Both the position numbers and the translations under genes were made by a program. This document shows positions 3,974 to 59,421 of a stretch of 59,548 bases of DNA, piece after piece. Source of the stretch: Nitrospirota bacterium (GTDB lineage Bacteria; Nitrospirota; Thermodesulfovibrionia; Thermodesulfovibrionales; SM23-35); NCBI GenBank assembly GCA_013388435.1, contig JACAFE010000053.1:1-59548 (forward strand), read 5' to 3'. Position 1 is the first letter of the stretch; each line of letters starts with the position of its first letter. The notes beneath the pieces were generated by a model. It did no database searches. It was not told the origin of the DNA and saw nothing but the letters and a program-made list of their open reading frames with translations.

Positions 3974-4259
3974 TAAGTGAAGTATAGCAAAAGAGAATTT
4001 TTAAGTCGAGCATACAAAATTCCAGTGATGTTACTATTTTAAAATGTCACACTTTGGTTATTCTTTTTTCCTTAAGAGATAAGTGATTAACCCGAAAAAT
4101 GCAGACATTTTTCACAGGTCATAGATCATAAAAGGCTGAAGGCAAATAGCAAAAAAAGGCTGAAGGCTTTAGGCTGAAGGCTGAAGTATAAAGCAAAAAC
4201 AATAACGTACAGCTCAAATCGTAAGGAGCAAAGCTCAAAAAGAAGGTTGAAGGCAAATA

Positions 4260-4371
4260 GCGTTTATAGCGTTATAGCGTTTATTGCGTTCATTGCGTTA
4301 TAGCGTTTATAGCGTTCATTGCGTTTATTGCGTTATTGCGTTATTGCGTTCATTGCGTTTATTGCGTTTAT
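4260..4371. repeat. tandem array of 13 variant 8/9-bp units, consensus GCGTT(T/C/-)AT(T/A)
   Basis: Read directly: GCGTTTATA GCGTTATA GCGTTTATT GCGTTCATT GCGTTATA GCGTTTATA GCGTTCATT GCGTTTATT GCGTTATT GCGTTATT GCGTTCATT GCGTTTATT GCGTTTATC. Confidence 0.95.
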
Positions 4372-4431
4372 CAAATAACATAAAGCGAATAGCTTATAGT
4401 TCGTGGCAAACAACTATTAACATAATGAAAT

Positions 4432-4596
4432 GGCAATAATTCAATTTATGAAACAAAATCACGGGTCTCTTTTTACTGAGGCTGAAGTCGAAGCGTAAGC
4501 CTCAGAGATAAAATAGGTAACTACATCAAAATATAAAATAGAGCTATGTTCTTATATTAAGGTAGTTTATTTTGGTTCATAAATTGAATTATTGCC
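4432..4596. mobile_element. MITE-like element copy A with 28-bp terminal inverted repeats
   Basis: GGCAATAATTCAATTTATGAAACAAAAT (4432-4459) versus ATTTTGGTTCATAAATTGAATTATTGCC (4569-4596), one mismatch; same termini as the copy at 21485-21596. Confidence 0.7.
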
Positions 4597-4845
4597 AATA
4601 AACAACCTTATAACTAAATTGACAAAGGGGGAACATAGCAAAGAGCAACGAGCGTAGAGCAAATAAAAAAGCCTAACGCCTTGAGCCTATTTTCAATTTC
4701 GCAATTTCTGTATTATTTCAATTGCATTTTTAGGGTCAACGAAATCATCATTCTTCGAAGGCGGAAATATTATGACTTCAATATAGCTCACTTCAAATAT
4801 AAATTAGAAGAAAATCATCGTATCCATCCGAATTAGGAAGATGGG

Positions 4846-18961: not shown

Positions 18962-19113
18962 AATTTAAAATTATACCATATTACTAATTTATCTAAAATA
19001 CTTTTAACCTATAAAATACAATTTAAATAATGCAAATGTTTCGAAATTGAAAAAAGGTTGAAGGCTAAAGTATTTTAGAGGCGTTCAGCCGAACTCTCTT
19101 ACTACTTTCATCT

Positions 19114-19286
19114 ATTCGCTATTTGCTTTCAGCACAAAGCCTTTTTATTTGTTCTTCGCTCTTTGCTATTTGCCAGGTTCCACCTTTGTTAAGGGGGTCA
19201 GGGGGTTGTATATTCCTTTGTCAAGTTAGTTATAAGGTTGTTTACTGGCAATAAATAAATATTTAAGCAATTTCTGCATTATTTGA
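19114..19286 (-). repeat. long inverted-repeat copy L, reverse complement of the repeat at about 21434-21725 but lacking the 112-bp TIR element
   Basis: The reverse complement contains AAATAATGCAGAAATTGCT...TTTATTTATTGCCAGTAAACAACCTTATAACTAACTTGACAAAGGAATATACAACCCCCTGACCCCCTTAACAAAGG...CAAATAGCAAAGAGCGAAGAACAAATAAAAAGGCTTT. Confidence 0.93.
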
Positions 19287-19287
19287 G

Positions 19288-20580
19288 TTAATGTTTGAAT
19301 GCACGTTGTCCTGTGAAAACCATGGTCACTTTTGGATTTGCTTCATTGCATGCAATTATTGACTCAAAATCTCTTTCGGAACCGCCCGGGTTTACAATGC
19401 CTGTAATTCCTTCTTTTATGCCAACATCAACACCGTCTCTGAAAGGGAAGAAAGCGTCTGAAACCATAATCGAGCCAATAAGCCCGCCTTTATTTTTTCT
19501 TGTCTCCTCATCTATTTCAAGTAAATCTTCTTTTTTCCTTTTGCCGTTTTTTATATCAAGTTCAAAAGTTTTGTAAGGCACGCCATATTTCTTAAAACAA
19601 AGCGCATCAGCATATTTTGTGTATGCCTTGAAAATCGCAATCTCTGCTACTCCAACTCTATCCTGTTCGCCAGTTCCGATACCAACTGTAACTCCGTCTT
19701 TAACATAAATAACAGAATTAGAAGTAATACCCTGTTCAACATTCCATCCAAAAAGCATATCTTCATATTCTTTCTCGGTTGGCTGTCTTTCTATTGCATA
19801 TTCCTGTCCCTTATAAATCGTCTTTGCGGGGAGGAAATCTTCTTTTCTCCTTATTCTGTTTATCGGAGATTGCTGGACAATTATTCCTCCATCTATTAAT
19901 GATTTGAAATCAACGAACCTGAAGTCTTTGTATTTTTCAAGTTCAGTAATTCTGTTTACCCTTATTATCCTTAAATTTTTTCTTTTAGCAAGAATAGGGA
20001 TTACTCCTTCTTCAAAATCAGGTGCAGCAACAACCTCAAGATAATTGTTACTTACCATTTCTGCGGTTTCTTTGTCCATTGTACGATTAACCACGAGACA
20101 ACCACCAAATGCTGCTATGCGGTCAGCCATATTTGCTTTATAATATGCATCAGCAATGTTTTTCCCATATGCTGCGCCGCATGGATTATTATGTTTTAAG
20201 ATTACAGCAGCAGGTTTATCCATTAAGAATTTAATTATATTAAGTCCGTTATCAAGGTCTGTAAGATTAGTCTTTCCCGGATGTTTACCAGCCTGAATCA
20301 TGTCTTCTTCAGTAATACTGCTTACAAGACCATTTTCAGGTAAAATGAATTGACAATTTCCGAGGAGGAGATTTCCATTAATTAGTTCATATAGGGCTGC
20401 TTCCTGTTCAGGATTTTCTCCATATCTTAGACCTTTTTCAATAAGTTCGCCTGTTTTCTCATCAGGTATTTTCCAGGTTCTTTTTTTATAAATAAGTGTT
20501 TGATTCCCGAAACTGATTTTCATCTCATCAGGGAAATGGTCAGCCATTATCGTACGATACATTTTTTTAATATCTGACAT
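19288..20580 (-). CDS. AICAR formyltransferase-type PurH-like protein without an apparent N-terminal MGS/IMP cyclohydrolase domain
   Basis: LRYGENPEQEAALY; VILKHNNPCGAA; GGCLVVNRTMDKETAEM; SDAFFPFRDGVDVG; about 430 aa. Confidence 0.82.
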   Translation of the reverse strand: MSDIKKMYRTIMADHFPDEMKISFGNQTLIYKKRTWKIPDEKTGELIEKGLRYGENPEQEAALYELINGNLLLGNCQFILPENGLVSSITEEDMIQAGKHPGKTNLTDLDNGLNIIKFLMDKPAAVILKHNNPCGAAYGKNIADAYYKANMADRIAAFGGCLVVNRTMDKETAEMVSNNYLEVVAAPDFEEGVIPILAKRKNLRIIRVNRITELEKYKDFRFVDFKSLIDGGIIVQQSPINRIRRKEDFLPAKTIYKGQEYAIERQPTEKEYEDMLFGWNVEQGITSNSVIYVKDGVTVGIGTGEQDRVGVAEIAIFKAYTKYADALCFKKYGVPYKTFELDIKNGKRKKEDLLEIDEETRKNKGGLIGSIMVSDAFFPFRDGVDVGIKEGITGIVNPGGSERDFESIIACNEANPKVTMVFTGQRAFKH

Positions 20581-21433: not shown

Positions 21434-21725
21434 TTTAACCCAAATAATGCAGAAATTGCTCAAAAATTTATTTATAGCAATTCTGGCAATAACTCAATTT
21501 ATAAGACAAAATAAACTATCATAGGCTGAAGGCTTCAGGCTGAAGGCTGAAGTATAATAAGACCCGTGATTTTGTTTCATAAATTGAATTATTGCCTGTA
21601 AACAACCTTATAACTAACTTGACAAAGGAATATACAACCCCCGACCCCCTTAACAAAGGGGGACCTGGCAAATAGCAAAGAGCGAAGAACAAATAAAAAG
21701 GCTTTATACTGAGCAAATAGCGAAT
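21434..21725 (+). repeat. long inverted-repeat copy R carrying the embedded TIR element
   Basis: High-identity counterpart of 19114-19286 in opposite orientation. Confidence 0.93.
21485..21596. mobile_element. MITE-like element copy B, 112 bp, with 28-bp terminal inverted repeats
   Basis: GGCAATAACTCAATTTATAAGACAAAAT (21485-21512) versus ATTTTGTTTCATAAATTGAATTATTGCC (21569-21596); absent from the otherwise homologous L repeat. Confidence 0.75.
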
Positions 21726-21912
21726 TAACTCATGAAATTATTTAATAACAAAACCATCGGCTAAATGGTTACGGTACGATGCCATTTTCGTTCAGTGGCT
21801 ACATTGTTCGGCTATATCACTTTACCGTTTGACTTTACCGAAACGGGCTTCGTTGCCGCTTGACGCTTTTCATTTGATGGTCAATTATAAATTCAGGTTA
21901 ATCTTTTGAACA

Positions 21913-52504: not shown

Positions 52505-52611
52505 ATTCATAATTCTAAAAATTAGAACAGTTGTTTATATATTTAAACCAAAAAATTTAATTGAAATAATGCAGATATTACTAATTTTTCTATTTTTCAA
52601 CAACCTGAGGA

Positions 52612-59353: not shown

Positions 59354-59421
59354 ACGTTATAGCGTTCATTGCGTTCATTGCGTTATAGCGTTTATTGCGT
59401 TTATTGCGTTATTGCGTTTAT
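59354..59421. repeat. second tandem array of GCGTT(T/C/-)AT(T/A) 8/9-bp units
   Basis: (A)CGTTATA GCGTTCATT GCGTTCATT GCGTTATA GCGTTTATT GCGTTTATT GCGTTATT GCGTTTATC; followed by CAAATA as in the first array. Confidence 0.95.

Follow-up and report, generated by a model that had tools for sequence, protein, structure and literature searches.

The 112-bp block at positions 21485-21596 of the window (the whole 59,548-nt stretch analysed, contig JACAFE010000053.1 of GCA_013388435.1, from a Nitrospirota bacterium) is, in the reading that we consider probable, part of a nested MITE arrangement that holds an ancient hairpin module, one folded strand of which is under selection, probably as RNA. The block would be a degenerate copy of this module. 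The CACGGGT strand is predicted to fold into a stem of roughly 29 bp that encloses an inner hairpin together with two conserved boxes. The module's carrier in the host genus would be a MITE with TTAA as its insertion target, probably mobilised in trans by a DDE transposase that did not turn up in the genomes searched. The folded single strand appears to be under selection, most likely as transcribed RNA, because changes in one arm were matched in the other and copies remained conserved while the intergenic flanks decayed. The arms themselves may permit inversion and deletion, by which one of two MITE copies in the window, R, would have lost part of the module's interior and the other, L, nearly all of the module.

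The features of the block were as follows.
21485-21596, minus strand: hairpin module in a shortened, 112-bp form, with CACGGGT on the minus strand
21485-21512, plus strand: left arm, GGCAATAACTCAATTTATAAGACAAAAT
21569-21596, plus strand: right arm, ATTTTGTTTCATAAATTGAATTATTGCC

The 28-bp imperfect inverted repeats reported in the initial annotation were real: the two arms agreed at 25 of 28 positions once one of them was reverse-complemented (89% complementary), and the RNA fold of the block, far above chance, had a z of -7.0, a value matched by 0 of 200 shuffles. Covariance model R1 scored the block at 71.4 bits (E 1.7e-14) in a search of the window. To our knowledge, its termini match no named IS. 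The 112-bp form retained both arms together with CACGGGT and TAGTTTA, and the inner hairpin was replaced by a GGCTGAAGGCTTCAGGCTGAAGG / GGCTGAAGGCTTCAGG stretch; it was therefore read as a shortened variant. Searched against its own genome, as had been proposed, the block yielded one further 112-bp copy (C46:187-298, 97%) and dozens of matches, full or partial, to a 165-bp form whose ends are those of the block. The description of a repetitive, non-autonomous, MITE-associated sequence was thus borne out, and 112 bp was rejected as the repeat unit, 165 bp being the common form.

The window also holds a full-length module.
4432-4596, plus strand: full-length 165-bp hairpin module (model match 146.4 bits, E 1.7e-31)
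4460-4466, plus strand: conserved unpaired box CACGGGT
4478-4503, plus strand: inner hairpin, GAGGCTGAAGTCGAAGCGTAAGCCTC, with a stem that covaries between species
4559-4569, plus strand: second conserved box, AAGGTAGTTTA, next to the 3' arm

The arms of this copy were identical at 27 of 28 positions and its fold had a z of -7.4. Both sides had changed in four of the six pairs of the inner hairpin (helix 2). The module consists of one long stem over an asymmetric interior rather than of two short inverted REP palindromes, and both boxes, CACGGGT and AAGGTAGTTTA, are conserved across families.

The relationship of the block to its surroundings was read from L and R, which are inverted homologous repeats.
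19004-19291, minus strand: outer MITE L, 288 bp long and bounded by TTAA (19004-19007 and 19288-19291); the site is empty in G001
19247-19254, plus strand: module remnant in L, GGCAATAA, corresponding to the module's last 8 bases, TTATTGCC
21435 to about 21901, plus strand: outer MITE R, carrying the 112-bp module; its left end, TTAACCCAAATAATGCAG, is clear

The homology of L (given as 19114-19286) with R, on which the initial annotation had relied, was seen on alignment. From it, the annotation had read the block as a MITE-like element inserted into R and L as the apparent pre-insertion site, a view for which the sharp 28-bp inverted ends and the near-identical second 112-bp copy speak, but which we consider very improbable. 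The sequence of L at the junction was TTTATTTATTGCCAGTAAACAACC, that is, TTATTGCC followed by AGTAAACAACC, and AGTAAACAACC is the flank found 3' of the module in many other copies; a clean pre-insertion L would read TTTATTTATAGCAATTCTTGTAAACAACC. L thus keeps the end of the module and the post-module flank, and it was rejected as a site that had never held the block. No target duplication was present at GGCAATAA/TTATTGCC, and the ends of the block showed neither a target duplication nor an exact module-only empty site. Module copies also have common flanks, and their usual full-length form is 165 bp; the 112-bp block is not the transposing unit, and the insertion signature belongs to the larger TTAA-flanked MITE. 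Since the 3' end of the module survives in L, the evidence favours a deletion in L, the alternative that the annotation had itself named, over an insertion in R. Nearly the whole module would have been lost from L, a conclusion based on the remnant and not on an intermediate form.

The true empty site of L was found in the sister genome G001, where the locus reads CCAAAAACAGGTTTAATGTTTGAATG, with one TTAA, as opposed to CTTTTAACC...GAGTTAATGTTTGAATG, with two, in the block's own genome; L is thus a 288-bp insertion spanning 19004-19291. The alignment of loci with and without an element accordingly yielded an empty site for the outer MITE (L, in G001) and none for the 112-bp block. The right-hand TTAA of L (19288-19291) overlaps the predicted stop codon of a minus-strand ORF, 19288-20580, which looks like purH. 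A second repeat module (AGTAAACAACCTTATAACTAACTTGACAAAGG...CCCCCTTAACAAAGGGGGA...AAATAGC) lies at 19138-19254 and 21589-21703; many copies have it next to the hairpin module, and the genome gave 46 matches to it, full or partial.

The common flanks of the module copies indicated that the repeat unit is larger than the module. In the host genus, this outer MITE has TTAA ends and the terminal inverted repeat (TIR) TTAACCCRAAWAATGCA, and measures 181-184 bp where it lacks the module, as in copies from G001 and G006; TTAACCCRAAWAATGCA-like repeats bounded both these copies and those of the block's own genome. The ends of L match this family, whose TIR pattern had 210 matches (70 in G000, 56 in G001 and 84 in G006), while a reversed control pattern had one in the three genomes together. 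The right end of R is tentatively placed at the TTAA at 21898-21901. A further element of this family encloses the full-length module.
4087-4739, plus strand: outer MITE with the full-length module; left end TTAACCCGAAAAATGCAGAC, right end TTTTTAGGGTCAA degenerate, with a 9-bp minisatellite inside

A target duplication together with an empty site was fully seen for the outer MITE at one locus only, L; at three further loci (L018, L023 and L227), homology to G001 starts or stops at TTAA. The MITE arms of the block's own genome hold the module in both orientations.

Several other observations concern the same family. Minisatellites of 9-bp units (GCGTTTATT / AACGCAATA) occur at 4260-4371, inside the MITE at 4087-4739, and at 59355-59421, and GCGTT arrays similar to that of the window lie inside other MITEs of the same genome (L018, L027 and L014). 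TIR pairs fused head to head or tail to tail were seen at G001:C13:41226-41255 (L231) and G001:C33:22263-22292 (L232), possibly representing minimal or tandem elements. At 52543-52583 of the window, a stretch that weakly matches the terminal repeat of the MITE is perhaps a degraded copy. Copies in genus g8 (the flanks of L137-L168) often have outer inverted arms, TCATNNCTGTCCAAAATA / TATTTTGGACAGCAATGA, which by eye resemble TTAACCCAAATAATGCAGACAT ends.

The module extends well beyond the host genus. Homologues found by BLAST in the family and order differ in arm sequence and keep the pairing, as in the arms of G007, GATGCTGCGTCTGG...CAGATGCAGCATC. Within the order Thermodesulfovibrionales, 34 of the 177 genomes searched with the covariance model contained the module. 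A sample of 296 genomes from the phylum gave 22 with matches, every one of them a member of this order; many of the genomes with the module hold at least 16 copies. No Rfam 15 family matched the window copies or related copies above the gathering threshold, the core pattern and the palindromic TIR had no match in viral contigs, and phages and plasmids gave no match to the module. Orientation relative to neighbouring genes was mixed, with no single preferred direction, and genomes with few copies had no shared neighbour gene except in orthologous pairs of closely related genomes. The open-access literature, to which the search was confined, subscription journals being outside its scope, held no description of the module or the element.

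The stem covaried between copies. In a 15-sequence alignment that was not fitted to the model, both sides had changed in 24 of 36 pairs, as opposed to 0 of 500 shuffles, and 89% of cells were paired compared with 31-47% in slid controls. In 80 aligned matches, the corresponding figure was 31 of 36 pairs (again 0 of 500 shuffles). The 15-sequence result is the safer one, as the alignment of 80 matches was fitted to the covariance model and includes eight reverse-strand matches. Mismatches within stems were counted in alignments of one arm with the other, made for every copy independently of the model. Transitions from Watson-Crick pairs are expected to give G.T and A.C equally; G.T mismatches nevertheless numbered 65 and A.C mismatches 19 over all copies, and 54 and 18 (p = 2.6e-5) when each genome, position and type was counted once. 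The fold of one strand, the CACGGGT strand, therefore seems to matter, and the bias points to selection acting on that folded strand. A single DNA strand would also be expected to tolerate G.T better than A.C, so the bias bears on one folded strand and not on RNA as such. RNA is the simplest reading of the selected molecule, and we infer transcription of the module and a function as RNA from these sequence patterns.

Imperfect inverted repeats are known to mutate by template switching, and repair of imperfect palindromes by this route could bring back arm pairing in the absence of selection. The arms might then be complementary only through correction of quasi-palindromes in replication, the module being inert MITE sequence. 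The deletion in L would fit such hairpin-driven rearrangement, as would the inversion between L147 and L167 described below. Template switching nonetheless leaves unexplained why the boxes CACGGGT and AAGGTAGTTTA are conserved across families, why orthologous copies are conserved above their flanks and why G.T mismatches exceed A.C, and we regard it as quite unlikely to be the whole account.

The conservation of orthologous copies was seen in two sister species, G008 and G018, in which module copies occupy the same loci. In four orthologous pairs, the module was 86-94% identical, whereas, of the eight 50-bp flanks, seven were 56-77% identical and one was 98% identical; by this comparison, orthologous modules are better conserved than their flanks in seven of eight instances. 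Double compensations were readable at L140/L154 (GGCGAAATTT/AAATTTCGCC as opposed to GGCTCAATTT/AAATTGAGCC) and at L137/L153. At one locus shared by two sister species (L147, 1143-1311; L167, 3083-3251), the module was inverted relative to the conserved right flank. This inversion, together with the presence of the module in both directions between the outer arms in the host genus, would fit a switch that a recombinase inverts by acting on the inverted arms. The arm sequences, however, vary freely between species and the gene context is inconsistent, and it is hardly probable that the module is such a switch.

Profile searches with PF01609, PF01797 and PF13701 found no transposase with ends matching the MITE, so the look for an autonomous element with the same termini, also proposed in the initial annotation, found none among these profiles; a search with PF13843 was silent in all genomes, its controls included. 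IS1380 (PF13701) had no match in the block's own genome, G001, G006, G008, G018 or G004, and among 15 genomes it matched in G005 and G147 only. Several candidate partners were rejected: the IS1380 loci of G005 that were inspected are without TTAACCC ends; spans of 1-1.6 kb between TIR-like ends (G001 C45, G000 C32/C34) contain ordinary genes; the PF01609 transposase of G000 at C82 has unrelated ends, AGAAATTCC; and the Y1_Tnp loci have no paired TIRs, only scattered weak matches.

The Y1 family bears on a further explanation, in which the module is a REPIN-like transposition substrate that folds as single-stranded DNA and is moved by a Y1 (RAYT) transposase, recognition of the hairpin driving the covariation. 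REPINs are dispersed, intergenic, non-autonomous long hairpins with compensatory changes in their arms (PMC3116915), the conserved GGTAGTTTA box of the module contains GTAG, and Y1 genes are present in G000, G008 and G018. Against this, Y1_Tnp had no match in G004, G075 or G043, multi-contig assemblies that are 95-100% complete and each hold at least 16 module copies. The insertion signature in the host genus, TTAA with long TIRs, is not REP-like, and the asymmetric interior with conserved boxes differs from a REP doublet. We judge this explanation unlikely, and favour the nested MITE with a module selected as a folded strand.

One aspect of the findings is ordinary: the genome holds a family of TTAA MITEs and yielded few transposases. 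Less ordinary is a hairpin module common to several families of one order, with evidence that one folded strand is selected. It is possible, and we suggest it tentatively, that the family comprises mobile structured RNAs of a single bacterial order: small RNAs that contain conserved boxes, spread as cargo of TTAA MITEs and stay functional where they land; as a joint part of this tentative proposal, their spread in other genera would be with other repeats. In bacteria, palindromic repeats are mostly regarded as inert or as transposase substrates. The module, present dozens of times in one genome, unmatched in Rfam and with several layers of evidence for selection on one folded strand at fixed sites, provides a concrete case for asking whether a mobile repeat can be maintained as a working RNA, and what mobilises TTAACCC-ended MITEs where few transposases are found.

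Among known systems, REPINs and BIMEs with RAYT (Y1) transposases resemble the module as dispersed, intergenic, non-autonomous long hairpins with compensatory arm changes. The module differs in that three copy-rich genomes have no Y1 transposase match, and in being longer, having conserved interior boxes and being nested within TTAA MITEs in the host genus. Like the structured RNAs of Rfam, the module has a covarying stem, conserved unpaired boxes and an order-wide spread, although its copies match no Rfam 15 family. A TTAA target with TTAACCC ends presumably marks MITEs of the piggyBac/IS1380 type, which L resembles in having TTAA at both ends, an empty site with a single TTAA, a TTAACCC start, a small size and no ORF; in the block's own genome and in G001, G006, G008, G018 and G004, the corresponding profile, PF13701, was unmatched. 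ERIC, Correia (NEMIS) and RUP-type repeats are dispersed intergenic sequences of about 100-170 bp that can fold at the RNA level and are held at fixed sites in sister species. The module appears to be like them in size, dispersal, folding and fixed sites, and we know of no sequence relation between them; it differs in that its covariation spans several families of the order and in its distinct conserved core.
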